Shown here: positions 6,401-58,552 of the stretch, in pieces
How the letters are laid out: every line of letters begins with the position of its first letter
How positions within the stretch are numbered: the first letter of the stretch is position 1
Origin: Boswellia sacra
Taxonomy: Eukaryota > Streptophyta > Magnoliopsida > Sapindales > Burseraceae
NCBI GenBank assembly: GCA_013180625.2
Contig: SNVD02014732.1
Span: 29,153 to 93,152 of the forward strand
Direction: 5' to 3'
Length of the DNA: 64,000 bases
Position numbers and translations under genes: made by a program
Notes under the pieces: generated by a model
What the model saw: only the letters and a program-made list of their open reading frames with translations
The model's database searches: none
What the model was told of the DNA's origin: nothing

Positions 6401-7051
6401 ATGGAGAAAACACCAATTCGGCGATTCCGCAATATATGCGTATTTTGCGGATCGCAATTTGGTAAAGATGGAGAGTTTACCACAGCAGCTCTTGATCTTG
6501 GTAGGAAATTAGCTGCGAGGGGTATTAATTTGATTTATGGAGGGGGTAGTCTTGGGTTAATGGGGTGTGTGTCAACAGGTGCATCCCTAGGAGGGAGCAA
6601 AGTTCTCGGCATTATCCCTAAACCATTAGCTGTACGAGATATCGTAGGCAACACAATTGGGGAAGAGTTACAGGTCTCTAGTAGGCATGAGCGTATTGCA
6701 CATATGGTTGTTAAGTCCGATGCATTTATAGCTTTGCCGGGTGGTTATGGTACATTAGAGGAGATATTTCAAATCACCTCTTGGGCACAGCTAAACATCC
6801 ATCGGAAACCCATTGGTTTGTTAAATGTTAATAATTTTTTTGATGGTTTGTTGTCCTTTCTTGATCAAGCTGTAGAAAAAAATTTCATCTCACCGTCAGC
6901 GAGGCAAATCCTGGTTACAGCTTCAACTGCAGGGGAGTTAATTGATAAACTCCAAGAATTCGTCTATTCGCCTGATTCAACAATGGCTCGGATAGATTGG
7001 TTTGGAGAAGGCAATAAGAGGCGTAAACTCGATTTAACGCTCCATCTGTAA
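6401..7051 (+). CDS. LOG: Retrotransposon-borne LOG: cytokinin riboside 5'-monophosphate phosphoribohydrolase
   Basis: Intact, intronless 216-aa ORF of the LOG (lysine-decarboxylase-like, Rossmann) family. LOG enzymes hydrolyse cytokinin nucleoside 5'-monophosphates to the active free base and ribose 5-phosphate, in the cytosol and nucleus. Seen in order: ICVFCGSQFGK at 12-22, GGGSLGLMG at 47-55, LGIIPK at 69-74, the Arg-bearing HERIAHM at 96-102 (Arg98), [10 protein letters not shown] at 112-121 (ending at Glu121), and IHRKPIGLLN at 133-142. Arg98 and Glu121 align with the catalytic pair of plant LOGs. The C-terminus is unusual: KRRK (206-209) followed by LDLTLHL (210-216), an NLS-like stretch plus an EAR-like LxLxL motif. 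The start is fixed by the ATG before EKTPIRRFR, conserved in E. Host LOG genes have several introns; this copy has none, so it looks cDNA-derived. It lies inside element A, not beside it. Confidence 0.92.
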   Translation: MEKTPIRRFRNICVFCGSQFGKDGEFTTAALDLGRKLAARGINLIYGGGSLGLMGCVSTGASLGGSKVLGIIPKPLAVRDIVGNTIGEELQVSSRHERIAHMVVKSDAFIALPGGYGTLEEIFQITSWAQLNIHRKPIGLLNVNNFFDGLLSFLDQAVEKNFISPSARQILVTASTAGELIDKLQEFVYSPDSTMARIDWFGEGNKRRKLDLTLHL

Positions 7052-9024
7052 TCTCTATCTGCTGGTTTGTTTTGTTTTTGTTTGCTTTCTTTTTATTGTG
7101 TTTATTTGAGAGTTTTCATGTTATTTCTTTTGAGCTTTTTTAGGTTATTTCTTTCGTCCCAGGTAATATTTTCTAATCTCGGTTTTTAGAGTGGTGGCTT
7201 AAAAAGTTCAAGTTCTCTTGAAACGCATTCTGGATCTCTTCAATCCATAATGGCTGAATAAGGAGGCTAACTTCTAAACTTTTTAGACCCATTCTAACTA
7301 ACTTGTTTTTGTTTGCTGACTTGTTGAACTTTGTTATTTTATGAGTGAGTTTAGTTTTGCGTAATTTAGAGTTGTTATGTGTTTTTATCTTTATCAGTTT
7401 CGATTTAAAAAAAAATTGTGAAAAAACCTGAGAATGGCAGAATATAGGGTTTCCTTAACCCTTGAAACGCATTCTTCCTTAATAACTTTGTAGTTTGTTT
7501 ATTTCATGTTGTTTGAAGTGTCTTGTTTCTTGTTTTTTTCTTCATAATAAAGGTATATAGGCTGGAAACCTTAAGTCTGCGGGCTACTGGTCCTAAGGAT
7601 TGTTGAAATATACAATCTTGACTCAGGTGTAACAACGCCACGTACCTCTTTTCTTGCATTTGTGGGTCGATGATAAGATAATGATTGAATTAAGAATAAC
7701 TCTTGGAAAATGATAAATGATGCATGGATCTTTGTGCTTGAAATGTTAATTAGTTTTTGCTTGACCTTTGATTCCTTGCATAAAATTGAGCACCGAGCCA
7801 TTATCACTGAGTTATTTGTTTACTTAGAGAAAGTTTATGTAATTTAAGTGTTTCTCCAGATTTCAATGAATTCTAGAACTTGTTTGATGGTCACTCGAGG
7901 CGAAATCCTAGACTGTGCAACATTGGGGAAATGATTTAGCCATCTTTGGACCGTTTGAGCCTTAATAGCCAACCTTGACTGAAATTGATCCCTAGTTACC
8001 CCTTTGAGCCTTTGTAAGCCTTTTTCTTTGTTAACTCACTAAAAGATTTCCTAACCTCAAATGAAATTATTCCAAACAGTTTATCCCTTACCTATGAGCA
8101 TGTAGATCATTCACAATTAAATTCTGAGCTATGTTCTGGTTTTGGAAGGTTAGAGGAGGTCGGGATGTGTCATGCGCAATGCAAGTGAGTCCTATTATGT
8201 TTGTAAAAAGAAAAAAAAAAGAAAAGAAAAAAAAAATCTGTACTTATCTTTCACGTACTTAAACATTGAGGACAATGTATTGTTTAAGTGTGGGGGAGTG
8301 GAATTGCAGTTAAAAAAAAAAAAAGAAAAAAAAAGACTTCTATACCCTTGGGCGTTCTTAAAAAGAATGAAACGACAAAGTTTGGGGGTGTAGTTTCTTT
8401 TGCTTTCCACAAAAAAAAAGAAAAAAAGAAAAAAAGAAAAAAAAAGAGAGTTCGAGTGTTCTGAATAAGTTTGGGAGAGTCATTTGATGAATAAGAATGA
8501 ATTTTTATGTCATGGGCTTGAGCTCCACATAATATTGAATGATTTTATGTGTTTGTGGGTGATTTGAGCCTAATTATTATCCTTTATCATACCTTCACCC
8601 AAGCCAAACGTTACAAGCTTAATAAAGTCCTCTTGATCCTTGGTGTTGTATGTCTACATTAGTGGAGAGTGACTTGAAAAGCAAGCCTATGGAGTTCATT
8701 TATACACACATCTTCAATATTAAATATGATTCATTTTTATGCATAAAATCATCCGGGTTACAAGTGATTAGGTGAGAATGGCTCTACACACACACACACT
8801 TGAGGAATTGAAATGAAGCGAAACTAATCTTTGAGATAAAATTCTTGATCAAGTGCATTATTTTGAAGTTTTCCTTGGGTTATAATTAAGTACAATCTCT
8901 GAGGCCTATTTGCAAGATGAAGCATTTGTGTGTTTTAATTTTTTGTTGATTCTGTTTCGGTTTAGTTTTATTTCACATTGTCGTAGTTGCTCGAGGACTA
9001 GCAAAGTCTAAGTGTGGGGGAATT
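7052..9024 (+). other. Long 3' untranslated region of element A with polypurine tracts
   Basis: No credible ORF. It contains A-rich runs interrupted by G (8203-8236, 8312-8336, 8409-8446). Polypurine-tract-like blocks recur: GTGTGGGGGAG near 8291, GTTTGGGGGTG near 8381, GTTTGGGAGAG near 8470, and the terminal AAGTGTGGGGGAATT at about 9010-9024, directly before the LTR. A phrase TTGAAACGCATTCTGGATC (about 7219-7240) recurs in shortened form near 7463 and is recognisable, reversed, in the 3' UTR of G (about 57590-57660). Similar UTRs follow LOG in E (48139-50126) and F (38961-40033). Confidence 0.7.
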
Positions 9025-10431
9025 TGATAAGTGTTTATTTATATATCATTTCATATCAATTCGTCCATGTTTCTTTGCTATATTCATTGGTATTTGTATG
9101 TTTTTGTGTGGTTTTGATGTTTGTAGGAGTTTTGGAGCAACTTGCACAAAAATGGAGTAAAACCCTCATTTTCACCTCTGCTAGTCAGTGATCTTCTCGG
9201 ATTTAATTGTATTGATATACAATGAACCCGACGACATGTTATATACCGTTGGAAAGCTCTCGAAGTCTATTTTCTGGAGAAATTTACGGTTTATAAATCC
9301 ATTCAGTGTACCAATAGTTGTAATCAAAACAGTGTGAGATGTATAGAAATATAATTCCACAAGTCACTGTAGCATGTATAATACGGGGCACTGTAGCAAG
9401 TCACTGTAGCAGAGTATTTAAACACATTTAGGGTTTTATTTTCATAACTTGAAGAGGAGAGAACGTGGTGGAGGCTTCAGCTCTGGAATTCTTTCATCTC
9501 TTGGAGTTCTTGAAGGAGAAAGGAAGCTTGAAAAGAGGAAGAACTACAATCCAAAGAGAATTACATCAAATTTGCTAAGTTTTTCCCTTCCCTTTCATTT
9601 TCTGGAATGTCCCCATGTTGTATTGTATTTACCACGTTCTTAAACATGTGTAACTGAATCTGAATTGGTTGAGGGTGATTTCAAAGCCCCTGATATGGTT
9701 TTTGTAAATTGATTGTGCAAGAAGTTGTTATCCATTCTCTAATTGAATTTGCTTGTATTTTCCTATATCTAATGCTTATGATTGCTTACTGGATTGTATT
9801 TCGAATGGCCAACTGAATATAATCTGGTTGTTGTCTATTGCTAGACTAGAAATCTTGATCCGTAATTGTCTTGAATTTCTAATTCTTAGTAGCAAAATTG
9901 TGATCAGATATTGCAATTGGAGAATACAACCTAAGTTAAATAATCCGAGCTTGTGTGTTTATTGCTTAGATCAACCTATCTTTCTTATCGTAATGCATCC
10001 ATTGAATTAAATTTAGAGAGCGGTTCTAGGTTGTTTAATGGATAGAGATTAAATAAAGAGCCTGTTTTGTTTAACAACAAAGTAAGGAAAGATTGTGATA
10101 ACAGAGCTTGTTGTTATCTACGGTTGATAACTTCAATGCTGTAATTGGATTACAATTCTATGTTAATTCACAAATTCAAATCTTGTGGTAGAGAATGAAC
10201 TCTTAACCAAGTGTCTCTCATTGATTTTTCACTCCATTTAACTTTGCTTTGTGTTATTCTTCATTTGCTTTCGTATTAAGTGTAGTTAATCAATCAACAA
10301 AACCCCCCCTGTTTAGTTTATTATTGCTGGAAAATAACAAATTCAATTAGAATCAATCCTCGTGGGAACGATATCTACTTATCACTTTATTACTTGTGCG
10401 ACTAGTATACTTGCTAGTTTCGAACGCATCA
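9025..10431 (+). mobile_element. Shared LTR: 3' LTR of A and 5' LTR of tandem copy B
   Basis: Starts TGATAAGTGTTT and ends GAACGCATCA, 1407 bp, family 1. It is preceded by the polypurine tract of A and followed at 10437 by a complete tRNA-Asp primer-binding site and gag. It is therefore flanked by internal sequence on both sides, as in LTR-internal-LTR-internal arrays made by recombination between LTRs. It carries three CACTGTAGC motifs before TATTTAAAC. Confidence 0.9.
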
Positions 10432-10436
10432 AGTTT

Positions 10437-10454
10437 TGGCGCCGTTGCCGGGGA
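10437..10454 (+). other. Primer-binding site, copy B (tRNA-Asp type)
   Basis: TGGCGCCGTTGCCGGGGA five bases after the LTR end, identical to the site at 2041. Confidence 0.88.
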
Positions 10455-10546: not shown

Positions 10547-10940
10547 ATGGCAGTAAACTTCCATCAATTCAGTGGCGGATTTGAGCCACAACTACCATGG
10601 ACAGTAAATGAGGTAAACACTCCGAACATTGAACAATAACTTTCTGAGTTAACTTCTCTTGTGGAAAACATGGCTGTAGGACATATGCAGAAATCTTATG
10701 CATGTGAGGTATATTCTACCATGGAGCATCTAATCGACATGTATCCAATTTTGCAAGGAGAAATGGAACAAGCCAATACCATGGATGGATTTCCAGGACA
10801 AACAAGGCAATGGTATGATCCCTTCTCTAACACTTGTAATGCTGGATGGGAAGATCACCTTAATTTCAGTTACTGAAATCATCAACCAATTGCCCCAAAT
10901 GCCATACCAAATCGGGCACAAGGTTTCAATCAACCTAGAA
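10547..10940 (+). pseudogene. Truncated gag of tandem copy B
   Basis: Nearly identical to 2148-2540 of element A, including the same in-frame stops (TAA in GAACAATAAC and in AGTTACTGAAAT) and the same Cys-to-Tyr changes in the zinc knuckle. It ends at AATCAACCTAGA. Then follow two copies of ATCTCGCAAAAAT and, from about 10968, minus-strand integrase of element C. This is a deletion or rearrangement breakpoint. Confidence 0.85.
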
Positions 10941-10967
10941 CGATCTCGCAAAAATCTCGCAAAAATG

Positions 10968-11536
10968 TTAGATTTCACAAAATCTACAACAACTTTAGAA
11001 TCATTAGTTCTCATAGCTCTTGCTTCCACCCATTTAGAAACATAATCCACAGCAAGTATAATGTAAACATTACCAAAAGATGAAGGAAAAGGACCCATGA
11101 AATCAATACCCCACACATCAAAAATCTCAACAACAAGTATAGGGGTTTGTGGCATTTGATTTTTGGCACTTAAATTACCTGTCCTTTGACAACGGTCACA
11201 AGCTTTGCAAAATAGATATGCATCTTTGAACAATGATGGCCAATAGAATCCACAATCAAGAACTTTCAGGGCTGTTCTTTTTGGTCCGAAGTGACCGCCA
11301 CATGCATAAGAATGACAGAGGGTCAAAATTGAATTAAATTCAGATTCAGAAACACACCTTCTTATCACTTGATCAGAACAATGCTTCCATAAGTATGGAT
11401 CATCCCATATGTAATATTTGGCAATGTTTTTGATCTTGTCTCTTTGAGCTCGAGTCAAGTCATGTGGTAGCTTCTTGGTAACTAAGTAATAAACAATATC
11501 TGCATACCAAGGGGCTGCTACATGTAGAGACAGCAA
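10968..11536 (-). pseudogene. Integrase, N-terminal part, element C (truncated)
   Basis: Reads from [17 protein letters not shown] into the HHCC zinc-binding domain (LCHSYACGGHFGPKRT ... FCKACDRCQ, all four ligands present) and the start of the catalytic core with the first Asp in [17 protein letters not shown]. It stops after FVKSNIFARF, before the second catalytic Asp, where it meets copy B in the opposite orientation. The frame overlaps that of RNase H upstream by one short shift near 11530. Athila-type integrase. Confidence 0.88.
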
Positions 11537-12258
11537 TTGTTCATCCGGAAAACTTTCTTGTAATGGCAGACATCCTCGTCATGGACAATGCGACTGAGAT
11601 GGTCTGCAACTAAGTTTTCACTTCCCTTCTTGTCTTTGATTTCCAAGTCAAACTCCTGTAAAAGGAGTATCCACCTAATAAGCCTTGGTTTAGCATCTTT
11701 CTTTGTGAGCAAGTACCTCAAAGCTGCATGATCAGAATAAACGGTTACTTTAGTACCAATCAAATAAGATCGAAACTTTTCTAAAGCAAAAATAACCGCT
11801 AGCAGCTCTTTCTCAGTGGTAGAATAATTAAGTTGAGCATCATTTAAAGTCCGAGATGCATAGTAAAGGGCATGTGGAATTTTGCCAATTCGTTGACCCA
11901 AAACAGCACCCACAGCGTAGTCACTTGCATTGCACATGATCTCGAATGGATGATTCCAATTCAGAGATTGGATTACTGGAGCCGAAGTCAAGAGTTCCTT
12001 CAGTTTCTCAAATGCCTCTTTGCATTTCTCATCAAATTCAAAGGCCACATCATTCTGTAATAAACTGCATAGGGGCAATGCTATCTTCGAGAAATCTTTG
12101 ATGAATCTACGATAAAAACCTGCATGACCACGAAAAGAACGAATATCCCGCACACTTGTGGGAGGTGGTAAGGAACATATAAGATCTATCTTAGATTTAT
12201 CAACCTCTAAACCCTTAGCAGAAATAACATGTCCCAAAACTATACCCTGATCTACCAT
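11518..12258 (-). pseudogene. RT C-terminal end and RNase H, element C
   Basis: Begins [23 protein letters not shown] (RT thumb), followed by [22 protein letters not shown] and the RNase H domain: [16 protein letters not shown] (first catalytic Asp region), [34 protein letters not shown] (catalytic Glu) and [12 protein letters not shown] (Asp). Ends in the connection domain [13 protein letters not shown]. About 246 codons are open. Upstream it is separated from the palm by a stop near 12290. Confidence 0.9.
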
Positions 12259-12294
12259 AAAATGACATTTCTCCCAATTCAGAACAAGGTTAGT

Positions 12295-12990
12295 TTATAT
12301 ACATCTTTGAATTATAAGGGTAAGGTTGTCAAGGCATTTATCAAAAGAATCACCAAAAACACTAAAGTCATCCATAAATACCTCAATAATGTTCTCAAAA
12401 TAATCAGAGAAAATACTTACCATACACCTTTGGAAAGTGGCAGGGGCATTGCAAAGACCGAATGGCATGCGTCGATAGGCAAATGTACCGAATGGGCATG
12501 TGAATGTAGTTTTCTTTTGATCCTCAGGGGCAATGACAATCTGATTATATCCTGAATAGCCATCAAGAAAACAATAATGAGAATGACCTACTAATCTCTC
12601 CAGCATTTGATCAATGAATGGCAAAGGAAAGTGATCCTTGCGAGTTACTGTATTTAGCTTCCGATAATCAATACAAACTCGCCAGCTAGTTTGGATACGA
12701 TGGGAACTAGCTCATTATTGTCATTCTTAACCACCGTAACACCAGATTTCTTCGGAACAGCTTGGACTGGGTTAAATCATGAGGAATCACCCAACTGACC
12801 TCCCACCTTGCCTGATCCGAAATTGCATAAATTCACACACACATCCTAACATTCAGGATTTCTTTCTGCACAACTTCATATCATTGGAGTGATTCATTAC
12901 CTCCGCTGTGCTTCTATGGGTGGCTTGGATCCTTTTCGGTCTATATGAAGTTTACGGTGCCATGCAGTATGGCGTTTCTTTTGGCTTAAT
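12295..12990 (-). pseudogene. Reverse transcriptase palm and fingers, element C
   Basis: 12295-12624 encodes the RT palm: YCFLDGYSGYNQI, FAYRRMPFGLCNAPATFQRC and the catalytic box VFMDDFSVFG, which is intact. Upstream (12625-12990) the fingers region is recognisable but broken by frameshifts and a small deletion. Typical Athila-type RT of Ty3/gypsy elements. Confidence 0.85.
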
Positions 12991-13765: not shown

Positions 13766-15686
13766 AAATAGAATGAGGCATCATGACATTATCGATGCTC
13801 CTAAATCTAAACATTCGCTCTTTCAAACTTGGTATTACCAAAATGGATGCAATGGAATGGTGAACGTACCTGGATCTTTGACATTCGGAGGAATTTTTCT
13901 TTGCAATACAGCTGAAAATTTTCCCCACACTTACCTTCTCATTTCCTTTCAACTTCCTCTTGTTGGTGCAAAACTCTTTGAGAAATTTTGCATAACGAGG
14001 CACTTGCTTGATAGCATCCAGAAGTGGTATGTTTACCTCGATCTTGCGAAAAGTTTCCAGGATTTCTTGTTCTTGTTCCTCCTTCTTTGATTTTGCAAAT
14101 CTGCTGGGAAAAGGTGGAGGGGTAACATATGAATGAATGGAACTTTTAGGATTTACCTTAGAAGTGGATGTTTTGTTCATGGTAGAAGTGGTATCATCCC
14201 CTTCATCAATTTGTGATTTCTTTGGTGGAATCTCTAATTGCTTTCCACTTCTCAAAGTTACAGCACTAGCATTCTCTCTTGGATTGATCACCGGCTGAGA
14301 AGGTAATTTTCCTGAGCTTTGACTCTCAAATTTGCTCATGTTAGTGGCCAATTGTCCCATTTGATTTTCCAGGTTTTGGATACTTGCCCTAGTTTCCTGC
14401 TGAAATTGCATTGTGTTAGTGGCAAGTGCTTTAACAATATCCTGGAGAGACATACCTGAATTTTGTGGAGCTGGTTGTGATGCTGGTTGTGGTTGTGCTT
14501 TGAAATGGTTGCTGCACCCTTGGTTGATTAAAACCTGGTGGTCGATTTGGTATGGCATTTGGGGCAATTGGTTGATGATTCCCATATCTTAAATTAGGGT
14601 GATCTCTCCATCCAGCATTGTAAGTATTGGAGAAAGGTCATACCTTTGCCTTGGTTGTCCTGGAAATCCACCCATAGCATTGGCTTGTTCTGTATCTCCT
14701 TCTTGCAAAGTTGGACACATGTCGGTTGGATGGTCCATGGCAGAACATACTCCACATGCATAAGATTGCTGCATATGTCCTACAGCCATTTTTTTTACAA
14801 GAGAGGTAAGTTCACAAAGTTGATGTTCAATATTTGAAGTACTTACCTCATTTACTCTTTTTGGTAGTTGTGGCTCAAATTGATTGCTGAATTGTTGGGA
14901 GTTCGCTGCCATGTCACTAATCAAACGTCTTGCAACGTTCGGTGTTTTATTAACTAGTGCTCCACCACTAGCAGCATCAATGATACTCCTTTCCATTGGT
15001 AAGAGACCCTCATAGAAATATTGAATTAGGAGTCCATCACTAATTTGGTGGTTTGGACAGCTAGCACATAACCTTTTAAATCTCTCCCAATATTCATGAA
15101 GTGATTCTCCATTGTGTTGTCGAATGCCACTAATATCTTTTCTAATATTTGTAACTTTCGAGGCTGGAAAGTATTTCTCCAAAAAGAGTTTACTCATCTC
15201 ATTCCAAGTGGTAATGGTACCTGGTGGTAGGTAGTATAACCAATCTTTTGCCGAATCTGCTAATGAGAATGGGAAAGCTCTCAATTTAATTTGCTCTTCA
15301 GAAACGCCGGTTGGCTTCATACTTGAGCATACCACATGAAATTCTTTGAGGTGTTTGTTCGGATCCTCTCCTGCAAAACCATGAAATGTAGGCAAGAGAT
15401 GAATCAGTCCAGATTTAAGTTCAAAATCTATCTCAAAATTGGTGCTTATGCATAGCGGTTGTTGATCAATAATTGGAGCCGCTAACTCCTTAAGAGTCTG
15501 ATCGTTTTCCATCGCCATTGCTTCCGATTCAGATTTGATTGAACTGCAAGAAGATGGGAGGGAAGTATGTCGTGCAAGGTCAAATTCTGGAGGTGGAGTT
15601 GAAATTGACCGATTTAGCCTTAAATTCGAGGATTGGAGAAACTCCTTAATTCTCTTAAGTCGCTGATCCGCTTCTCCCTCGGACAT
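13766..15686 (-). pseudogene. gag, element C (nearly full length)
   Basis: Starts MSEGEADQRLKRIKEFLQSS shortly after the primer-binding site. The Retrotrans_gag core is visible around residues 110-260 (LLPTFHGFAGEDPNKHLKEF, DWLYYLPPGTITTWNEMSKLF, ESLHEYWERFKRLC). The zinc knuckle (about residues 320-333) is C-x2-C-x4-H-x4-C and intact. A frameshift near 14590 splits gag into two frames; the second (13766-14585) carries the Gln/Pro-rich and protease-proximal part. This copy shows what A, B and E have lost: they begin at the equivalent of residue 275 or so. Confidence 0.9.
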
Positions 15687-43766: not shown

Positions 43767-43772
43767 AGTTTT

Positions 43773-43790
43773 TGGCGCCGTTGCCGGGGA
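43773..43790 (+). other. Primer-binding site, element E (tRNA-Asp type)
   Basis: TGGCGCCGTTGCCGGGGA six bases after the LTR. Confidence 0.9.
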
Positions 43791-43879
43791 TTGATTTTCT
43801 AATCGATTTGTTATTTTGTTTTCATTGTTGATTCATATTTTCTTTGTTTTTCTTTTCTGATTGTTTGTGTTTAGACAAC

Positions 43880-46195: not shown

Positions 46196-46304
46196 TGCAG
46201 CAGCTTGTGGAAACATCCAAACGGAAGTTGAAGTCATTCGCCAAAGGTTTGAAACGTGCATATCTTGGAGAAAAACAAACCCGATCGCATTATCGGTAAT
46301 ATCT
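46196..46304 (+). repeat. Duplicated protease-RT linker, element E
   Basis: Same sequence and end point as in A (KRKLKSFAKGLKRAYLGEKQ), matching the protease-RT linker of pol. Confidence 0.7.
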
Positions 46305-46322
46305 CTTCTTTTCTCCTCTTTA

Positions 46323-46904: not shown

Positions 46905-47089
46905 AACCAGAGGAAGATGTGAGCCACAATCACAACTACTTGTATATTTGAATGTGTGTTGTTGTTGTCGAATTTTTTTCTTGTTTCGTTTGATCTGATT
47001 ATCAATGTTGTTTTTGTGTTGTTGTTGTTTGTTGATTTTGTTTGTTTTAATTTCAAGTTTTCTTTTTGACAAACCATATGACTACCCCA

Positions 47090-47290
47090 TGGCATAAGCA
47101 CACGTGGGAGACAAGTGTGGAGGTTTTGTCAACCTCCGCCGAAAGTATATCTTTACTTTTCATGCTTCACGTGGGAGACAAGTGTGGCGGTTTTTTTCAA
47201 ACCCCACCGAAAGTTTATCTCCATTTTTCATGCACACGTGGGCGACAAGTGGTGGAGGTTTTGTCAAACCCCACGAAAGCATATCTATTT
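47090..47290 (+). repeat. 67-bp tandem repeats with G-box cores upstream of LOG (three units)
   Basis: Three copies of the unit seen in A. CACGTG at 47101-47106, 47168-47173 and 47235-47240, spaced exactly 67 bp. Each unit continues with GGGAGACAAGTG and a TTTTGTCAA(A)CC(T/C)C(C)GCCGAAAG-like segment. A has two units and F one. Confidence 0.8.
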
Positions 47291-47377
47291 TTTCAAATCT
47301 CGGGGCGATAAATCTGCATCGAGCAACCCCCACCGAAATTATGTCCCCATGTGTCAAATTTGAGAGTTTTACGTGTG

Positions 47378-47384
47378 TATATAT
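47378..47384 (+). promoter_or_regulatory. TATA-like box upstream of LOG, element E
   Basis: TATATAT 113 bp before the LOG ATG, at the same place as in A, preceded by ACGTGTG. Confidence 0.45.
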
Positions 47385-47490
47385 CCATGCTGCATATTTT
47401 GAAATGTCATTTTATAACCTGTCTTGCACTTGAATCGCATAATACCTAACGTGTATCATTGTCTTACACAAGGTTAGAGCACTTGTAGAA

Positions 47491-48138
47491 ATGGAGAAAA
47501 CACCAATTCGGCGACTCCAAAATATATGCGTATTTTGTGGATCGCAATTGGTAAAGATGGAGAGTTTACAACAGCAGCTCTTGATCTTGGTAGGACATTA
47601 GCTGCGAGGGGTATTCATTTGATTTATGGAGGGGTAGTCTTGGGTTAATGGGGTGTGTGTCGACAGTTGCATCCTTGGGAGGAAGTAAAGTTCTCGGCAT
47701 TATCCCTAAACCATTAGCTGTGCGAGATATCATAGGCAACACAATGGGGGAAGAGTTACAGGTCTCTAGCATGCATGAGCGTATTGCACATATGGTTGTT
47801 AAGTCCGATGCATTTATAGCTTGCCTGGTGGTTATGGTACATTAGAGGAGATATTTCAAATCACCTCTTGGGCACAGCTAAACATCCATCGGAAACCCAT
47901 TGGTTTGTTAAATGTCAATAATTTTTTTGAGGGTTTGTTGTCTTTTCTTGATCAAGCAGTAGAAAAAAACTTCATCTCACAGTCAGCGAGGCAAATCCTG
48001 GTTACAGCTTCAAATGCAGGGGAGTTAATTGACAAATTACAAGAATTCGTCTATTCGCCTGATTCAACAATGGCTCGGATAGATTGGTTTGGAGAAGGCA
48101 ATAAGAGGCGTAAACTGGATTTAACGCTCCATCTGTAA
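47491..48138 (+). pseudogene. LOG: LOG pseudogene, element E (single-base deletions)
   Basis: Almost identical to the intact copy at 6401-7051, starting MEKTPIRRL. Three one-base deletions break the frame: in GCAATT(T)GGTAAAG near 47548, in the G-run of GGAGGGG(G)TAG near 47632, and in GCTT(T)GCCTGG near 47822. Between them MHERIAHM (with the catalytic Arg) and PGGYGTLEE are intact; this copy keeps the usual Met before His where A has Arg. The last frame (47821-48138) ends KRRKLDLTLHL as in A. The small number of lesions points to recent inactivation. Confidence 0.92.
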
Positions 48139-50126
48139 TCTCTATCTGCTGGTTTGCTTCATTTTCATTTGCTTTCTTTTTAGTGTGTTTATTTGAGATT
48201 TTTTATGTCATTTCTTTTGATTTTTTTTTTTCAGGTTGTTTCTTTCATCCCAGGTAATATTTTCTAATCTTGGTTTTTAGAGTGGTGGCTAAAAAAGTTC
48301 AATTCCTCTTGAAACGCATTCTGGATCTCTTCAATCCATAATGGCTGAATAAGGAGGCTAACTTCTAAACTTTTTAGACCTATTCTAACTGCCTTGTTTG
48401 TGTTTACTGATTTGTTGGACTTTGTTATTTTATTAGTAAGTTTGGTTTTATGTAATTTAGAGTTGTTATGTGTTGTCTTTATTAGTTTCGATTCAAAAAG
48501 AGAAATTTGTGGAAAACAACTTGAGGATGGCAGAATATGGGGTTTCTTGAACCCTTGAAACGCATTCTCTCTAAATAAGTCTGTAGTTTGTTTATTTCAT
48601 GTTTTTGAAGTGTCTTGTTTCTTGTTTTGTTCTTTCATAATAAAGGTATATAGGCTGGAAACCTTAAGTCTGCGGGCTACTGGTCCTAAGGATTGTTGAA
48701 ATATACAATCTTGAATCAGGTGTAACAACGCCACGTACCTCTTTTCTTGCATTTTGTGGGTCGATGATAAGATAATGATTGAATTAAGAATAACTCTTGG
48801 AAAATGATAAATGATGCATGGATCTGTGTGCTTGAAATGTTTATTAGTTTTCGCTTTGTCTTTGATTCCTTATACAACATTGAGCACTGAGCTATTATCA
48901 CTGAGTTATTTGTTTACTTAGAGAAGGTTTATGTAATTTAAATGTTTCTTCAGATTTCAATGAATTCTAGAACTTGTTTGATGGTCACTCGAGGCGAAAT
49001 CCTATACTGTGCAACATTGGGGAAATGATTTAGGCCATCTTTGGACCGTTTGAGCCTTAATAGCCAACCTTGACTGAAATTGATCCCTAGTTACCCCTTT
49101 GAGCCTTTGTAAGCTTTTTTCATTGTTAACTCACTAAAAGATTTCCTAACCTCAAATGAATTTGTTCCAAACAGTTTATCCCTTACCTACGAGCATGTAG
49201 ATCATTTGCAATTAAATTTTGAGCTATGTTCTGGTTTTGGGAAGTTAGAGGAGGTTGGGATGTGTCATGAGCAATGCAAGTGAGTTCTATTGTGTTTGAA
49301 AAAAAAAAAAAAAAGAAAAAAGCCAATATGTACTTATTGTCCACATACTTATACATTGGGGACAATGTATTGTTTAAGTGTGGGGGAGGGGAAATGTAAT
49401 AAAAAAAAAGAAAGAAAAAAGAAAAAAAAGAAAAAAAAAAAGAACAAAAGAAGAAGAATAAGAGATCTATGCCCTTAAGTGTTCTTAAAAAGAATAAAAT
49501 AACAAAGTGTGAGGGTATAGTTTTCTTTTGTTTTCTGTAAAAAAAAAAAAAGATTGAGTGTTCTAAATAAGTTTGGGGGAGTAACCTAGTGAATTGAGAT
49601 GAAATTGTGTTATAGGGTTGAGCTCTACATAGTCTTGAATGATTTATGTGTTTGCGGGTGATTTGAGCCAAATTATTATCCTTTATCATACCTTCACCCA
49701 AGCCAAACGTTACAAGCTTAATAAAGTCCTACTTGATCTTTGGTGTAGTGCATGTCTACATTAGTGGAGAGTGACTTGAAAAGCAGGCCTATAGAGTTTA
49801 TTTATACACATATCTTCAATATTAAATATGATTCATTTTTATGCATAAACTCATCCGGGTTACAAGTGATTAGGTGAGAATGGCTCTACACACACACACT
49901 TGAGGAATTGAAGTGAAGCGAAACTAATCTTTGAGATAAAATTCTTGATCAAGTGCATTATTTTGAAGTTTTCCTTGGGTTATAATTAAGTACAATCTTT
50001 GAGGCCTATTTGCAAGTTGAAGCATTTGTGTGTGTTTTAATGTTTTCTTTGATTCTGTTTCGGTTTAGTTTTGTTTCGTATCATTTTAGTTGCTCGAGGA
50101 CTAGCAAAGTCTAAGGTGGGGGAATT
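48139..50126 (+). other. 3' untranslated region of element E with polypurine tracts
   Basis: Homologous to 7052-9024 of A. A-rich runs at 49299-49320 and 49399-49460. Polypurine-like blocks at about 49379 (GTGTGGGGGAGGGG), 49508, 49569 (GTTTGGGGGAG) and, directly before the LTR, AAGGTGGGGGAATT (50113-50126). No gene. Confidence 0.72.
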
Positions 50127-51542
50127 TGATAGGTGTCTATTTATGTATTAATTTTGTATATCAATTCGTCCATGTTTCTTTGCTATATTCCTTGGTATTT
50201 TTATGTTTTTGTGTGGTTTTGATGTTTGTAGGAGTTTTGGAGCAACTTGCACAAAAATGGAGTAAAACCCTTCATTTTCACCTCTGCTAGTCAGTGATCT
50301 TCTCGGATTTAATTGTATTGATATACAATGAACCCGATGACATGTTATATAACGTTGGAAAGCTCTCGAAGTCTATTTTCTGGAGAAATTTACGGTTTAT
50401 AAATACATTCAGTGTACCAAAAGTTGTAATCAAAACAGTGTGAGAAGTATAGAAATGTAATTCCACAAATCACTGTAGCATGTATAATAAGGGACACTAT
50501 AGCAGGTTACTGTAGCAGAGTATTTAAACACATTTTAGGGTTTTATTTTGATAACTGGAAGAGGGGAGAACGTGGTGGAGGCTGTAGCTCTGGAATTCGT
50601 TCATCTCCTGGAGTTCTTGAAGGAGAAAGGAAGCTTGGAAAGAGGAAGAACTACAATCCAAAGAGAATTACATCAAATTTGCTAAGTTTTTCCCTTCACT
50701 TTCATTTTCTGGAATGTCTCCATGTTGTATTGTATTTACCACGTTCTTAAACATGTGTAACTGAATCTGAATTGGTTGAGGGTGATTTCAAAGCCCTTGA
50801 TATGGTTTTTGTGAGTTGATTGTGCAAGAAGTTATTATCCAATTCTCTAATGAAGTTGCTTGTATTTTCCCATATCTAATGCTTATGATTGCTTGCTGAT
50901 TGTATTTGGAATGGCCAACTGAATATAATCTGGTCGTTGTCTATTGCTAGAGTAGAAATCTTGATCCGTAATTGTCTTGAATTTCTAATCCTTAGTAGCA
51001 AAATTGTGATCAGAGATTGCAATTGGAGAATACAACCTAAGTTAAATAATACGAGCTTGTGTGTTTATTGCTTAGATCAACCTATCTTTCTTATCGTAAT
51101 GCATCCATTGAATTAACTTTAGAGAGCTTGTTCTAGGTTGTTTAATGGATAGAGATTAAATAAAGAGCCTGTTTTGTTTAACAACAAAGTAAGGAAAGAT
51201 TGGGGATAACAGAGCTTGTTGTTATCTACGGTTGGTAATTTCAATGGTGTAATTGGATGACAATTCTACAATTAATTCGCAAATCCATATCATGTGGTAG
51301 AGAAGGATCCCTTAACCAGAGTTTCTCTCATTGATCTTTTATTCAAATTAACTTCTGTTTTGTTATTCTTAATTTGCATTCTTATTTCATTTAGTTAATC
51401 ATTCAACAAAACCCCCCCCCATTTAGTTAATTGTGGTTGGAAAATAAAAAATTCAGTTAGAATCAATCCTCGTGGGAACGATATCTTACTTATCACTTTA
51501 TTACTTGTGCGACTAGTATACTTGCTAGTTTCGAACGCATCA
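50127..51542 (+). mobile_element. 3' LTR of element E
   Basis: TGATAGGTGTC ... GAACGCATCA, 1416 bp, followed by the CTGGA duplication. Confidence 0.95.
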
Positions 51543-51547
51543 CTGGA
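51543..51547. repeat. Target-site duplication of element E, right copy (CTGGA)
   Basis: CTGGA, matching 42352-42356. Confidence 0.92.
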
Positions 51548-52500
51548 AATAACTTGAGGCGGGAATGAAATAAAAGGACTTTCTGTCCTACTTCAAAATT
51601 CATCTAGGAGATCATCTTACCATGAAATGCCTTAGTTCTCTCCTTGTAAATGTTTGAATTCTCATAGGCATCATTTCTAAGTTCTTCCAATTCTTGCAGT
51701 TGAAGCTTCCTTTGTTCACTAACAGCATCCATCTCCATGTTACAAAGCTTTACTACCTACCATGCTTTGTGTTCGAGCTCTATTGAAAGGTGGCATGACT
51801 TAACATATACTAACCTATACAAAGACATACCAATAGGTGTCTTGTAAGCAGTCCGGTATGCCTATTGTACATCATCAAGTCATAGGCTCCAATCTTTTAT
51901 GCTCGGATTCACTGTCTTCTTGAGGATGGACTTGACTTCTCGAATTGAAACTTCAACTTGACCACTGGTTTGTGGATGATAAGCAGTAGACACCCTGTGA
52001 GTAATGTTGTATTTCTTGAGCAAGGCTTCAAATGATCTGTTGCAGAAGTATGTTCCTTTATCGCTAATTATGGCTCTTAGTGTTCCAAATCTTACAAAAA
52101 TGTTAGATTTCACAAAATCTACAACGACTTTAGAATCATTAGTTCTCGTAGCTTTTGCTTCCACCCATTTAGAAACACAATCCACAGCAAGTATAATGTA
52201 AACATTACCAAAAGATGAAGGAAAAGGACCCATGAAATCAATACCCCACACATCAAAATTTTCAACAATAAGTATAGAGGTTTGTGGCATTTGATTTTTG
52301 GCACTTAAATTACCTGTCCTTTGATAACGATCACAGGCTTTGCAAAAGAGATATGCATCTTTGAACAATAATGGCTAGTAGAATCCACAATCAAGAACTT
52401 TGAGGGCTGCTCTTTTTGGTCCAAAGTGACCTCCACATGTATAACAATAACAGAAGGTTAAAACTGAATTAAATTCATATTAAAAAATGCACATTCTTAT
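51543..52500 (-). pseudogene. Integrase, element F (proximal to the E insertion)
   Basis: HHCC remnant near 52330-52450 (CGGHFGPKR ... FCKACDRYQ; the last Cys is Tyr), catalytic core [17 protein letters not shown] (Asp), [11 protein letters not shown] (Asp) and [18 protein letters not shown] (Glu), so the DDE triad is readable. The C-terminal segment [20 protein letters not shown] runs to 51543. Stops near 51880 and 51605. It continues at 42356. Confidence 0.85.
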
Positions 52501-53397
52501 CAGTTGGTCAGAACAATGCTTCCATAAGTATCGATCATCCCATATATAGTGCTTTGCAATGTTTTTGATCTTCTCTCTTTGAGCTCGAGTCAAGTCATGT
52601 GGTAGTTTCTTGGTAATTAAGTAGTTGACAATATTTGCATACCAAGGGGCTACTACACTTAGAGACAGTAATTGTTCATCCGAAAAACTTTCTTGTAACA
52701 GTAATGCATCCTTATCATGGCCAAGGTGATTAAGATGGTCTGCAACTAAGTTTGCACTTGCCCTCTTATCTTTGATCTCCAAGTCAAATTCTTGTAAGAG
52801 GAGTATCCACCTGATAAGCCTTAGTTTAGCATCTTTCTTTGTGAGCAAGTACCTCAAGGCTGCATGATCAGAATAAATGGTTACTTTAGTACCATCAAAT
52901 TAATAAGAACGGAACTTTTCTAAAGCAAAAATAACTGGAAACAGCTCTTTCTCAGTGGTGGAATAATTAAGCTGAGCATCATTTAAAGTCTGAGATACAT
53001 AGTAAATGTCATGTGAAATTTTGCCAATTCGTTGACCCAAGACGACACCCAAAGTATAGTCACTTGCATCGCACATGATCGCGAATGGATCATCCCAATT
53101 TGGAGATTGGATCACTGGAGCCAAAGTCAAGAGTTCCCTTAGTTTCTCAAATGCCTTATTGCATTTCTCAGCAAATTCAAAGGTCACATCATTCTGTAGC
53201 AATCTGCATAAGGGCAATGCTATCTTCAAAAAATCTTTTATGAACCTAGGATAAAAACCTACATGACCAAGAAAAAAAAGAATATCCCTCACAATTGTGG
53301 GGAGTGGTAAGGAACATATAAGGTCTATCTTAGATTTATCAACTTCTATACCTTTAGCAGAAATAACATGTCCCATAACTATACCCTGATCTACCAT
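52480..53397 (-). pseudogene. RT C-terminal end and RNase H, element F
   Basis: [40 protein letters not shown], then RNase [40 protein letters not shown] and, after a frame break at 52890, [20 protein letters not shown]. Ends in the connection ASANLVADHLNHL and continues to the integrase N-terminus. Confidence 0.85.
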
Positions 53398-53412
53398 AAA
53401 ATTACATTTTTT

Positions 53413-54007
53413 CTAATTCAGAACAAGGTTAGTTTCCATACATCTTTGAAGCATAAGTGTAAGGTTGTCAAGACATTTATCAAAAGAATCACCAAAAACA
53501 CTAAAGTCTTCCATAAATACCTCAATGATGTTCTCGACGTAATCAGAGAAAATACTTACCACACACCTTTGGAAAGTGGCAAGGGCATTGCAAAGACCAA
53601 ATGGAATGCGTTGATAGGCAAACGTACCAAATAGGCATGTGAAGGCAGATTTCTCTTGGTCCTTAAGGGCAATGACAATCTGATTATATCCTGAGTAACC
53701 ATCAATAAAACAATAGTGAGAATGACTTGCTAACCCTCTCAAGCATTTGATCAATGAATGGCAAGGGAAAGTGATCCTTGCGAGTTGCTGAATTGAGCTT
53801 CCGATAATCAATGTAAACTTGCGACCTGGTTTGAATACGAGTGGGAACTAGCTCATTATTATCATTCTTAACCACTGTAACACCAAATTTCTTGGGAACA
53901 ACTTGGACTGGGGTCACCCACTTGCTATTTGAAATTCGATAAATCACACCTATATCTAACATTTTGAGGATCTCCTTCTTGGCAACTTCCATCATTGGAG
54001 GATTCAA
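53413..54007 (-). pseudogene. Reverse transcriptase, element F
   Basis: Fingers: ISNSKWVTPVQVVPKKFGVT, YIDYRKLNSATRKDHFPLPF. Palm: YCFIDGYSGYNQI, IPFGLCNALATFQRC. The catalytic box is VFMEDFSVFG: the first Asp of the DD pair has become Glu. One frame break near 53720. Inactive by both criteria. Confidence 0.86.
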
Positions 54008-54436
54008 CCTCTGTTGTGCTTCTCTAGTGGGCTTGGAATTTTATTCTAACAAGATACGGTGCGTGCATATGGCTGGACTAATACCTTTGAGGTCAGCAAT
54101 TGTCCACCTAATAGCTGTTTTGTGATCTCTAAGTACTTAGATGAGTTTCTCTTCTTGTAGTGGTGCAAGGCCCTTTGCTATTATGACTGGCAAAGTATCT
54201 TTCTCACCCAAGAATACATGATTCAAATGATCTAGAAAAGGCTTGAGCTCCAAGGTAGGGGCTTTCATCACAGAAGGAAGAAGTTTCTCATTAGATAAAG
54301 GCAATTCAATGTAAGAAACATCATACTTATTTGTGGTTATAGCTATAGTCTCATCTAAGCTTGCCACAGCTTCCTCCACTTCTTTAGACACTTGTATCAA
54401 CCTTCTTGGTTCTTTGAAATTTTTCGTCCCTCTCAC
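54008..54436 (-). pseudogene. Protease-RT linker, element F
   Basis: Frame 54137-54436: EVEEAVASLDETIAITTNKY, APTLELKPFLDHLNHVFLGE and KDTLPVIIAKGLAPLQEEKL. Here the linker is in its normal place. Confidence 0.78.
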
Positions 54437-55175: not shown

Positions 55176-56577
55176 TGACACATCCGAAAAAGGATTATCT
55201 CCCAAGTATAGGAGTGTTGAAGTAATAAACCCGGTGAGACTGAGTTTGATCCACGAGGAAGGAGATTTTAGCACTACAAATTAAAAGGTAAGCAAATATG
55301 ATATGAATAATCAAGATGATATTAACAAAAGGTGGTAAAACCATCCATGGAAATAGAAGGTAAAACCTACCATAGCAAATGAAAGAACAATTTCATAAGC
55401 AATAAATAAGAATAATTAAAGTACAAAAGTAAGAGGAATTAACACAATAATAATGAAAGCTAAGGTCAGGGGATCCGCCCTTGATATTTGAAATAAGGAT
55501 AAGTAGCCCATTTTAGTTATATGAATTATATTTGTTTCGTTACCAATATTTATACCACTTGTTGTAAATGGGTTCAAGCATCCAATGTGTAAATCACCAT
55601 ATGTCTACAACAAATCAAGGTTCCTAACAAGACTTGTGTCGGTAAGGAAGAACCATATGACATCTAAAAAGGATCCAAGCATTTGATGTGCCAAGGATTG
55701 TCTATAATGGATCAAGATCACCACTTTACGAGTGGTGCCAATATTGATTAAGAAAATAAATATAAATCATAAAAAATAAACAACACAAGATTATGATTAT
55801 TAAGCACATGTCAAGGGTTAGAAAATCCTTATTCTCATATCAAGGGTTTCACCCTTTCACCTTAGCAAGAGATAATTTAGCAAGACATTATAAAAAAAAA
55901 GAAAACAAATTGCAAGAAAAAGAAAATTCATTAATAACATTAAAGCAGAAGAGAGAAAAACACAATAACAAGATATCTCAGCCAAGGCCAAGATGCCCTA
56001 ACGGGTCACAAGGCACCTTTATTTATAGATATATTTAGGGGCAAACTTGTCAAATTACAAAGGAACAATTGTCAAATATTTTGTTGACAATTGGGATCAT
56101 TAGGTGCAATGACTTTGACCACCGATTTCGGCATCGAATTATTGAGAATTTTGATGACATGTCGCCATAAAAGTTGTAGATATTTCTCTCAACTTTCTAG
56201 AACATCTTGATTCATATGATTTGGATACTATATCAAGAGATATTATCAAAATACTGAGGCATGGTCAAGCTGGGCCGAAACTGCAAATGGGTTCACTTCA
56301 AGCCCATTTTTGGTCCACTAAGAGCCCGAATTTGATGATGCTTGTAAATACAATCTTGTAAATAATTTAATCATCTTTCCAAAGCATCGAGATTTGCACT
56401 ATTCAGATCTATAAATAGAAAGTTATGCCCATTTTACTGAACCACCAAAATTAAGAGAAAGTTAATTTAAAAGATGCAAAGGCTACAAATATGCTTAAGT
56501 TGAGGAATTTAATGACACTATTAATGCAATATGATGAATTAAGCTCTTATTAAGCATATATATTTAAGTGTTCATCA
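55176..56577 (-). mobile_element. 3' LTR of element G (second LOG-bearing family)
   Basis: On the minus strand it starts TGATGAACACTTAAATATAT (56577) and ends TTTTCGGATGTGTCA (55176), 1402 bp, preceded by the polypurine tract GGTTGGGGGTG. I see no similarity to the family 1 LTR beyond terminal TG/CA. It is inserted in gag of F; the candidate target duplication is AAAAG (55171-55175). Confidence 0.78.
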
Positions 56578-57909
56578 CACCCCCAACCAGCTTATTGCTA
56601 GTCTCTAGCAATTAAAGCGTTATTATTTAGAAGTGATTTATAGAATTTTACATCAAAGGTAATCATTATTGCACTCTCTTTGATTTTATCCAAATAAACA
56701 AACTCTCAACCGATTTTTTTTTCCTTTCTCTCTTTTTTTTTCAAAGGACTCATGTACCCTTCAATCAAGATATTAACGACCTTCTTTTTGTGCTCAGTTG
56801 ACACATGACTATGCGGCTTATTAGAAAGAAGCCATATCGGTTCTAATATTTGTTAAGGCTAACAACCTTAGGTAGGGGGTATTCATTCATCATTGTTTAT
56901 ATATTTTTTTCTTCTTTTTTTTTTTTGAAAGAATGTATCTTTAACACATGTAGCGAGCCTTAGGCTAATGACTCCCAGACCAGTTGGCCTTAAGGCATTA
57001 GGTGTTAAGACACCCCTACGAGCTTAACGACTCGAGTTGTCGATGCTTTATTTTTGCTTAGAAAGTTGTGGATAGTGAAATGTTCAATCCCATTAAGCTT
57101 TCTCCTTAATCCATGTAAAGAGCTCCAATAGCTCCCAAACTAGTTGGTCTTAGGGTATTAGGTGTTGAGGCACCCCTTGGGCTTAATTGCTCAAATTAAG
57201 GAGGCTACGAGACCAAACTTATCCACGATTGCCTTTCTTTTTGCTTCTTTTTTTTCACTTTTTTTTTTTACTTTCCCCTTCCTTTTGTTGTTATCCTAAA
57301 CAAAACAAAAGAACTCAAATATTGCAACATTTCATTTTGCAACCCACAATCATGCATCAAGGTATGTGTGTGTGTGAAGAAAGGTTCATAAATACTTGCT
57401 TAATGAGTACGTGAGCACACAGTTTATTAAATGATAAGGTTGTGAGAGTTCATAGATTTGAATAATTCAAAGTGAAGTGAATAGGACCTCCTTGTTATGA
57501 AATTCAAAAATCAAAACTAAAAATATCAAGTTAGTTAAAATAAGTCTTTAAAAATGCAAAAACAAAATGACAAATTGGTTAGAGTGTGTTTCAAGAGTTC
57601 AAACTGACCTTCTTTACTCTGCCATTCTGGACCCAGAATGTGTCTCAAGAGGATTTGAACTCCTTACACCGCACTCTGAATCTAATTACTAACTCGCTTT
57701 CTTTTTTTTTTTGCAAGAAAAAGAAAATTTAAGACACACTTATGTCTACTATCCTTTCCCCCCAACCAAATGGAACATTGTCCTCAATGTTTAAATGTAG
57801 AGAGATAAAGCATGGGAGACATTACCTGAAGCTTCTGTTATTCAAGAGAGACGACCTGAAAGACTCATAAAATAAAATGTTAAAAATAAAATAAAAGACA
57901 AGAAAAAAA
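56578..57909 (-). other. 3' untranslated region of element G
   Basis: No ORF of interest. It contains T-rich runs and an imperfect direct repeat of about 160-bp period (about 56960-57050 and 57120-57205: CTCCCA(G/A)AC(C/T)AGTTGG(C/T)CTTA(A/G)GG(C/T)ATTAGGTGTT). A phrase related to the family 1 UTR (GTGTGTTTCAAGAGTTC; CCATTCTGGACCCAGAATG) lies near 57590-57640. Confidence 0.6.
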
Positions 57910-58552
57910 TTACAAACGGAGATTCATATCCAATTTGCACTTTTTGTTTTGTCCCCCTGAATAATTTGAGTTATAGCTGGGTCAAGTTCATACTTCATTG
58001 CTTGTAATTTGTCAAGTGACTCACTAGCAGAAGTGGCAGAAACAAGGATCTATTGCACTGGATGAGGGATAAAATTTTGTTCTACAACTGCATTAACAAA
58101 ACTTATCAAAGGATCAAAGAAAGTTTTAACATTCAACAAACCTATGGGTTTCTGATGGAGATTTAGTTGGGCCCAAGAGACAATTTGAAAAATTCCTTCG
58201 AGAGTACCAAAGCCACTTGGTAAAGCAATAAAGGCATCCAAATTGATAACCATATATGCCATGCGTTCATGCATAAAGGAGACATGTAACTCCTTCCCAA
58301 CCGTTTTTCTAATGATGCTTTCTACAGCCAAAGCTTTAGGAATAATACCTAAAAATTGCCTCCTACGAGTGCAGTTGTTGATACACAACCCATTAACCCA
58401 AGGCTACCTCCCCCATAAACAACATGAATCTTTCTTTCAGCTAATAGCCTACCAAGATAATTTGCTACTGCTACAAACTCTTCACTTTTTTCAGGTCGAG
58501 ATCCACAGAATACACATATCTTTTGGATTCGAAGTTTTGAGGTTCCCTCCAT
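57910..58552 (-). pseudogene. LOG: LOG pseudogene, element G (diverged copy)
   Basis: Begins MEGTSKLRIQKICVFCGSRP at 58552, with VVYGGGSLGLMGCVSTTALV next. A frameshift near 58370 moves it into the second frame: LGIIPKALAVESIIRKTVGK, MHERMAYM (catalytic Arg kept), and ALPSGFGTLEGIFQIVSWAQ, where PGGYGTLEE has become PSGFGTLEG, so the catalytic Glu position is Gly. A stop follows at 58050. The homologous sequence continues (ILVSATSASESLDKLQAMKY) and, after one more shift, ends KCKLDMNLRL and a stop at 57910, aligned to KRRKLDLTLHL of family 1. TATATA lies about 92 bp upstream. Clearly diverged from the family 1 copies but in the same genetic position. Confidence 0.9.

Follow-up and report, generated by a model that had tools for sequence, protein, structure and literature searches.

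The 64,000-nucleotide stretch of the Boswellia sacra genome analysed here (contig SNVD02014732.1; hereafter the window) contains long terminal repeat (LTR) retrotransposons that carry two extra genes, a LONELY GUY (LOG) gene and, upstream of it, an open reading frame (ORF) with a zinc-type cysteine cluster that matches nucleic-acid-binding protein families of flexiviruses (the zinc ORF). The arrangement is repeated in the genome and is found in two LTR families, the sampled LOG proteins of such elements (retro-LOGs) form a single clade with changed pocket residues, and ratios of nonsynonymous to synonymous substitution (dN/dS) below 1 are observed. Most likely, the zinc ORF and LOG make up an old two-gene 3′ module under purifying selection, which is predicted to act on host silencing and on nuclear gene control.

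Two extra genes in a retrotransposon lineage

A tblastn search with the 6401–7051 protein found exactly four LOG copies in the window, in elements A, E, F and G, confirming what had been described in a sequence-only reading of this stretch: each copy is in sense orientation behind a copy of the zinc ORF and inside an LTR element, with A and E on the plus strand and F and G on the minus strand. The same description placed a polypurine tract and an LTR behind LOG, which stands except for F, where the start of the 3′ LTR and the polypurine tract are lost. Only the LOG frame of A is open. The LOG and 3′ LTR of a further element, B, lie just left of the window (locus L037), so that there are five LOG-bearing elements in and beside it.

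The host assembly comprises 638.6 Mb in 7431 contigs. A genome search with PF03641 gave 10,198 first-look candidates, and each of the best 150, which were scored, covers the full model with no stop in it. The genome holds at least 150 full-length stop-free LOG domains, and the LOG-in-element arrangement is therefore not due to chance. The corresponding search for the zinc ORF gave 15,257 first-look candidates, the best 150 scored being 94–100% identical to that of E; as only the best candidates were scored, both counts are lower bounds. A DNA pattern search of the genome for the host-type LOG motif MH[QE]RKAEM gave 15 sites (0 in the control), and when a 61-aa piece of host LOG was used as genome query, the best 150 matches were filled by retro copies, not host genes.

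Sequence context was read at 20 of the best 150 LOG places, on long contigs, for 10 kb around each (less at contig ends). The zinc ORF is upstream of LOG in 19 of these 20 loci (exception L025), and an A-type LTR lies ∼2 kb downstream of LOG, likewise in 19 (exception L017; two short pieces in L014). The sequence-only reading had made its lineage idea depend on the same LTRs accompanying LOG copies elsewhere in the genome, and on this evidence the idea stands. With 16 shorter loci added (L006–L013 and L038–L045), a whole or partial zinc ORF is upstream in 34 of 36 loci (absent in L025 and L041; just a 20-residue piece in L006). An integrase was found upstream of LOG in 4 of the 20 long loci (its end only in L022). 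In 13, the sequence back to the 5′ LTR gave no match to the reverse transcriptase (RT) core, RNase H or integrase, and in 11 of these pol-less copies the capsid part of gag is missing too; zinc ORF and LOG are nevertheless present in 13/13, in a sample found through an open LOG. At 11 of the 20 loci, the LTR pairs are 94.9–99.5% identical over their first 1000 bases, indicating that some pol-less copies moved recently.

The LTR of G had been called unrelated to that of A, E and F, in agreement with blastn, in which no stretch longer than 14 bp is common to the G-type and A/E LTRs. A complete G-type element at locus L013 has LTRs (L034:4847-6374 and L035:1514-3044) that are 98.1% identical, the duplication CTCTC on both sides and, at L035:1491, the primer site of A, E and B (TGGCGCCGTTGCCGGGG). 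It contains an open gag frame (PF03732, 76 bits), a zinc ORF with stops near its end, and LOG; RNase H, RT and integrase queries found no match within its LTRs. Element G of the window matches it at ∼85%, and its 3′ LTR was placed at 56578–55176 because of this match. Since the two LTR types are unrelated, the zinc ORF–LOG arrangement exists in two families.

The elements have the features of Ty3/gypsy LTR retrotransposons, namely an LTR pair, a target duplication, a primer site, the order protease, RT, RNase H and integrase in B and G, and gag in B. The primer site common to A, E and B presumably fits tRNA-Asp, and a tRNA-Asp primer site is a link to Athila. No second RNase H was found between RNase H and integrase, and the two are directly joined in B. 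Absence of this second domain (aRH, which marks Tat) separates Athila from Tat, according to PMC6317226. From these sequence features the lineage is plant Ty3/gypsy, likely of Athila type.

Pocket, tail and descent of the retro-LOG

The retro-LOG of A matches both PF03641 and TIGR00730 over cut-off (Table 1) and contains the PGGxGTxxE motif and the catalytic Arg and Glu of the LOG family. Its predicted model (pLDDT 88.2, tail low) superposes on Arabidopsis At2g37210 with an rmsd of 0.7 and a TM-score of 0.97 on the chain. The best 120 of 7823 significant relatives (7998 scored), 121 with the window protein, were compared with a host set of 120 LOG1/LOG3-type proteins. Those listed include proteins from Xanthoceras, Melia, Diplodiscus, Reevesia, Pterospermum, Populus and Rehmannia, some in clusters of tens to hundreds. 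PGGxGTxxE is intact in 104/121 retro-LOGs and 108/120 host LOGs. A LOG alignment searched against IMG/VR gave five distant loci (L001–L005) on viral contigs, which, judged by their 28–31% identity, are not plant elements.

Pocket residues were compared at sites taken from PMC4979012, between 118 retro-LOGs (three chimeric models being left out) and the 120 host LOGs. K100 belongs to the adenine and prenyl pocket and E125 to the prenyl pocket, from the other subunit (PMC4979012). Host LOGs have R99, E122, K100, E125, H97, M96 and W129 in 120/120 cases. The catalytic residues are mostly kept in the retro-LOGs (R99 in 111/118, E122 in 113/118), as are W129 (117/118) and M96 (101/118). H97 is kept in 48/118 and K100 in 10/118, the other 108 having I, L or M; E125 is kept in 9 and replaced in 109. 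Most retro-LOGs therefore lack the full set of prenyl-pocket residues (M96, H97, K100, E125, W129) of a cytokinin-activating LOG, and the pattern indicates that changes affect the N6 side, with little loss on the side of phosphate, ribose and catalysis. Given these changes, the sequence-only view of LOG as a source of free cytokinin appears too quick. The NCBIfam cytokinin-LOG model (cut-off 300) scores 112 bits with the retro-LOG and 132 bits with AtLOG3; as AtLOG3 too is below the cut-off, that model decides nothing.

The retro-LOGs also have a new C-terminus. An LxLxL motif, which we take to be an EAR-type repressor motif, is present within the last 14 residues of 96/121 retro-LOGs, in 94 of them behind a basic patch, compared with 0/120 host LOGs. 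In copies from this genome the tail is mostly KRR[KQR]LDLTLHL or a close variant; that of G is KKCKLDMNLRL.

A maximum-likelihood tree was built from 53 of the 121 retro-LOGs, 20 of the 120 host LOGs, AtLOG8 and two bacterial LOGs, host sampling covering LOG1/LOG3-like proteins and one LOG8 sequence, with the LOG5 and LOG7 groups left out. All 53 retro-LOGs, from several plant genomes, fall in one clade with support 99/96, from a bootstrap that had not fully converged, and are separate from the host LOGs, as the proposal of a LOG-carrying retrotransposon lineage had predicted. Host and retro LOGs of Populus and of Diplodiscus are separated in the tree. AtLOG8 groups with the host LOGs (86/95) and the retro clade branches off outside both, which reflects either a capture older than the LOG8/host split or a long-branch artefact. 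When tail columns, pocket columns and outgroups were removed, the retro/host split was supported at 100/100. This reduced tree requires 3 changes for the tail, 2 for K100 and 1 for E125, and Xanthoceras-type retro-LOGs, which have K100 and E125 and lack LxLxL, are at the base of the clade; the capture thus seems to precede the changes in tail and pocket. Host LOG genes have introns, and the uninterrupted retro frame would then be a captured transcript.

Three Populus models named LOGL10 (P0043, P0053 and P0097) share the retro-LOG tail, and P0043 falls inside the retro-LOG clade; all three are probably mobile copies.

The zinc ORF, constraint and rival explanations

The sequence-only reading had missed both the LOG tail and the match of the zinc ORF to flexivirus nucleic-acid-binding families. 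The zinc-ORF core of E matches PF05515 Viral_NABP with 41.6 bits (E 1.8e-10, cut-off 23) and PF01623 Carla_C4 with 24.1 bits (E 3.6e-5, cut-off 20.9), and the longer frame likewise exceeds both cut-offs. A protein search gave 145 relatives, the best 120 of which were listed; in 15 of these 120 that were scanned, PF01623 was found in 15/15 and PF05515 in 14/15 at E ≤0.01. Named sources among the matches listed include Populus, Xanthoceras, Acer, Rhamnella and three Orobanche species. The ORF is ∼182 aa long, and a basic stretch adjoins a zinc-type cluster spaced C-x2-C-x4-C-x3-C, with R79, R80, K82, C87, C90, C95 and C99 (nearly) invariant in 51 sequences. When its low-confidence model was compared with BFVD, the top four matches were all flexivirus proteins, and two of these carry the name of silencing suppressor. 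Among PDB sequences no match was found up to E 1, and a zinc-ORF alignment searched against IMG/VR found no locus. In PMC12172455, viral cysteine-rich proteins (CRPs) are described as silencing suppressors with a nuclear signal and a zinc finger, and the CRP of chrysanthemum virus B as a transcription factor that causes hyperplasia. By analogy with viral proteins of this kind, we infer that the zinc-ORF protein would bind nucleic acid and blunt RNA silencing.

Linkage of the two genes extends to other plants. Precomputed Pfam annotation gave, among the matches listed, ten gene models that unite a zinc-ORF and a LOG domain in a single protein; nine of them are from Orobanche and the tenth is from Rhamnella. 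In this Rhamnella model (P0294), our own scan detected the LOG domain only, and the zinc-ORF part is shown by 60% identity to that of E. Another Rhamnella model (P0320) begins with the end of an integrase (66% identity to the G integrase end) and continues into the zinc ORF, and in Xanthoceras model P0002 a piece 68% identical to the gag–protease region of the window (63314–63213) lies between two LOGs. Four LOG/zinc-ORF match pairs on contigs of equal length (40 and 36 of the matches listed were compared) are suggestive of linkage, though no proof of it.

Between window copies, dN/dS was determined by the NG86 method. For LOG it is 0.37 (0.23–0.56) between A and G, 0.37 for E–G, 0.39 for F–G, 0.41 for A–E and 0.42 for A–F. 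For the zinc ORF the values are 0.31 for A–G, 0.30 (0.17–0.46) for E–G, 0.26 for F–G, 0.27 for B–G, 0.28 for A–E, 0.29 for A–F, 0.32 for E–F and 0.41 for F–B, and for the protease region 0.46–0.63. The corresponding polymorphism ratio (pN/pS) of the LOG tail, which lies outside the Pfam span used for picking, is 0.22 in 29 copies; that of the zinc ORF is 0.54 in all 25 copies and 0.27 in the 11 open ones.

We consider it an even call that this is a retrotransposon lineage whose two extra genes cooperate against host silencing and redirect gene control. Such an element carries two sense genes ahead of its 3′ LTR, one for a flexivirus-type cysteine-rich protein and one for a LOG-family protein. 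The former would blunt RNA silencing by binding nucleic acid, and the retro-LOG would retain phosphoribohydrolase chemistry on a substrate altered on the N6 side, enter the nucleus by means of its basic patch and bind TOPLESS-type corepressors through its EAR-like tail. It would go back to one event in which a spliced transcript of a host LOG was captured, pocket and tail having changed afterwards, and the pair would act jointly, host silencing being loosened and host gene control redirected to the element's favour. The LOG part of this proposal, an altered, nuclear LOG, is held tentatively, at somewhat less than even. It is possible, if rather unlikely, that the pair is a two-gene host-control cassette: one gene would encode a silencing suppressor that flexiviruses also have, the other a hormone enzyme that was captured and became a nuclear factor, acting on a new nucleotide and binding corepressors through its tail; as copies stripped of capsid and pol keep both genes, the cassette would be the part that pays. 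That the pair helps the element by acting on host gene control seems likely from the sequence features.

Several observations weigh against this reading. The EAR and nuclear-signal readings of the LOG tail are motif matches. The predicted structure of the zinc ORF is poor (pLDDT 64.7, pTM 0.31), its best BFVD match has E 0.039, none reaches E ≤0.001, and TM is ≤0.28 in the first nine. LOG dN/dS between E and F is 0.59 with an upper bound of 0.92 (0.40–0.92), and for the zinc ORF two comparisons involving the decayed B copy yielded 0.80 (A–B) and 1.96 (E–B), in an alignment of B that is partly out of frame. Pooled LOG pN/pS is 0.26 in 29 copies that were picked for absence of stops, and 14 of the 25 zinc ORFs are not open. 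E (L046) and L047 have identical zinc ORFs and a common LOG frameshift, indicating that broken-LOG copies have multiplied and that LOG is not needed in cis by every copy. Both K100 and E125 are kept in nine LOGs, five of them from Xanthoceras, and 8/9 lack LxLxL, so the pocket and tail traits do not define the whole lineage. Lastly, Orobanche LOGs P0321, P0330, P0331, P0336, P0349 and P0356 lack R99 and E121 (6/6 compared), and four of the six have a changed glycine in the PGG motif; catalysis may have been lost in elements of these parasitic plants.

The main rival explanation, which we consider unlikely without dismissing it, is that the retro-LOG performs ordinary cytokinin activation: free bases would promote division and more cells would inherit new copies, the zinc ORF being a separate nucleic-acid binder. 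The fold match to At2g37210, the mostly kept R99 and E122 and dN/dS below 1 agree with this, and Mycobacterium LOG, which has other pocket residues, is still classed as a LOG by the authors of PMC4979012. It is harder to reconcile with the replacement, in most retro-LOGs, of K100 and E125, invariant in 120/120 host LOGs, and with the retention of H97 in fewer than half of them (48/118). According to that source, alanine at AMP-binding and catalytic residues of Corynebacterium LOG, seemingly including K100, which binds adenine there, nearly abolished activity (PMC4979012). Cytokinin activation also leaves the new LOG tail unexplained.

If the pair were instead passenger cargo captured by chance, the apparent constraint would come from descent of copies from recent sources. 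The many broken copies (3/4 window LOGs and 14/25 zinc ORFs) fit such a history, as does the multiplication of broken-LOG copies (E, L047), but we regard it as quite improbable considering that dN/dS is well below 1 for both genes between the long-diverged A and G families, that the pair persists in two LTR families and in several plant orders, and that both genes are found in 13/13 pol-less copies, 11 of them also without capsid (copies found through an open LOG). That different elements captured host LOG genes independently, on several occasions, is very improbable indeed: the restriction of host sampling to LOG1/LOG3-like proteins and one LOG8 sequence leaves some room for this, but the retro-LOGs form one clade (99/96 with outgroups, 100/100 without tail or pocket columns) and have a common zinc-ORF partner and gene order.

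Layout of the window, known elements and significance

Table 1. Retrotransposon features of the window
Feature	Position	Strand	Remarks
Zinc ORF of B	217..636	-
5′ LTR of A	635..2033	+
Primer binding site of A	2041..2057	+	tRNA-Asp type
gag end of A	2148..3131	+	two partly repeated pieces; without capsid part
Protease-region ORF of A	3756..4523	+	protease call from place after gag; homologous pieces in B, E, F, G (tblastn); no match in Pfam scan
Zinc ORF (NABP/CRP-like) of A	5300..5850	+	interrupted by a stop
LOG of A	6401..7051	+	open, 216 aa, C-terminus RRKLDLTLHL; PF03641 E 1.4e-37; TIGR00730 172.7 bits (cut-off 96.35)
3′ LTR of A	9025..10431	+
RT/RNase H/integrase region of B	10733..12773	-
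gag ORF of B	14589..15686	-	Retrotrans_gag
3′ LTR of F	37866..38957	-	start and polypurine tract lost
LOG of F	40037..40684	-	five stops
Zinc ORF of F	41160..41723	-	stops
Element E	42357..51542	+	complete insertion without pol, nested in F between integrase end and zinc ORF of F
Zinc ORF core (NABP/CRP-like) of E	46323..46904	+	open, 193 aa
LOG of E	47491..48135	+	frameshifts; tail intact
Integrase, RNase H, RT pieces of F	51544..54259	-	far side of E
3′ LTR of G	55176..56578	-	unrelated to LTR family of A/E/F
LOG of G	57963..58552	-	frameshift and a stop; tail continues in other frame
Zinc ORF of G	58859..59427	-	broken
Integrase, RNase H, RT pieces of G	59700..62572	-

Element A, with an LTR pair that is 94.0% identical, is nested in B. 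The LTRs of E (42357–43764 and 50127–51542) are 97.3% identical, and the element is flanked by a 5-bp target duplication, CTGGA. Elements B, F and G contain the RT core, RNase H and integrase; A and E have none of these, nor the capsid part of gag. Of gag they keep only the end, and E has in addition a short piece of the stretch preceding the RT core. Matches of the end of the B integrase ORF to A and E were rejected as integrase, being antisense in the gag-end region and an ORF run-on. A TATA-like stretch ahead of LOG in A and E was dropped as a candidate internal promoter, as it is not conserved in F. The spacer between zinc ORF and LOG (6090–6220 and the matching part of E) contains short repeats of ∼60 bp, whose copy number differs among A, E and F. 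After the 3′ LTR of A, a second primer site at 10437 and a partial second internal region to ∼10939 form a tandem LTR-internal-LTR-internal remnant. Between retrotransposon clusters, at 19352–19780 on the minus strand, lies a host gene exon for eIF3 subunit 6/e (PF09440, E 5.1e-41), and, like elements of the Tat group, pieces of another Gypsy element at 34479–36809 on the plus strand contain a further RNase H-like domain (RVT_3) beside RNase H and integrase.

The abstract of Steinbauerova et al. 2011 (Genetica 139:1543) is said to mention two Athila-like elements similar to LOGL4. LOG cargo had been taken as undescribed in the sequence-only reading, which proved wrong. According to PMC9289625, YgdH/LOG domains occur in LTR-element consensus sequences of Citrus sinensis, C. 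clementina and, without filter, Populus trichocarpa, in agreement with Steinbauerova et al. 2011, and the extra domains that pass the filter are all in Gypsy-type elements. The Citrus and Populus elements likewise carry an extra LOG-family domain in plant Gypsy-type elements, and by description, not by sequence comparison, they probably belong to the lineage found here; the portion of that report consulted (PMC9289625) makes no mention of a paired virus-type zinc ORF, LxLxL tail, altered pocket or selection. The main text of PMC7264820 contains no occurrence of LOG, LONELY GUY or cytokinin, and a literature search, with subscription journals mostly outside it, found no report of a virus-type partner, LOG tail, pocket change or selection. 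LOG in such elements is thus known, and the other four traits were not found in the search. In orchid Gypsy elements, a host-type enzyme gene, an AlkB/2-ODD m6A demethylase, is likewise carried as an extra ORF, but enzyme, host group and elements (25 kb giants) differ (PMC9289625).

Plant LOG enzymes (AtLOG3, At2g37210) resemble the retro-LOG in fold, PGGxGTxxE motif, catalytic Arg and Glu and ∼50% identity, whereas the retro-LOG is a single uninterrupted frame in an element, has K100 and E125 replaced, carries the basic patch and LxLxL, and forms its own clade. The zinc ORF resembles the cysteine-rich proteins of carlaviruses, vitiviruses and trichoviruses (PF01623, PF05515) by profile match and by a basic stretch directly before the Cys cluster, and differs from them in length (∼182 aa, compared with mostly 100–140 among BFVD matches), in its C-x2-C-x4-C-x3-C spacing and in being retrotransposon-borne. 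LARD and TR-GAG elements are non-autonomous plant LTR elements. Like these, A, E and 13 of the 20 sampled copies are bounded by LTRs but contain no RT core, RNase H or integrase; unlike them, they keep the protease region, zinc ORF and LOG. Classification of A and E as TR-GAG elements was ruled out: the capsid part of gag is missing from both, and from 11 of the 13.

Most extra genes in plant LTR retrotransposons have no known domains; here two can be named, are linked and are constrained. A shared gene family, which may have been transferred in either direction, would tie plant retrotransposons to plant RNA viruses. Some plant models labelled as LOG enzymes, such as LOGL10 in Populus, cluster with the mobile copies, and work on cytokinin genes could be misled by them. 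If the cassette reading of the pair is true, a mobile element would interfere both with small-RNA silencing and with hormone- or nucleotide-linked transcription of its host.

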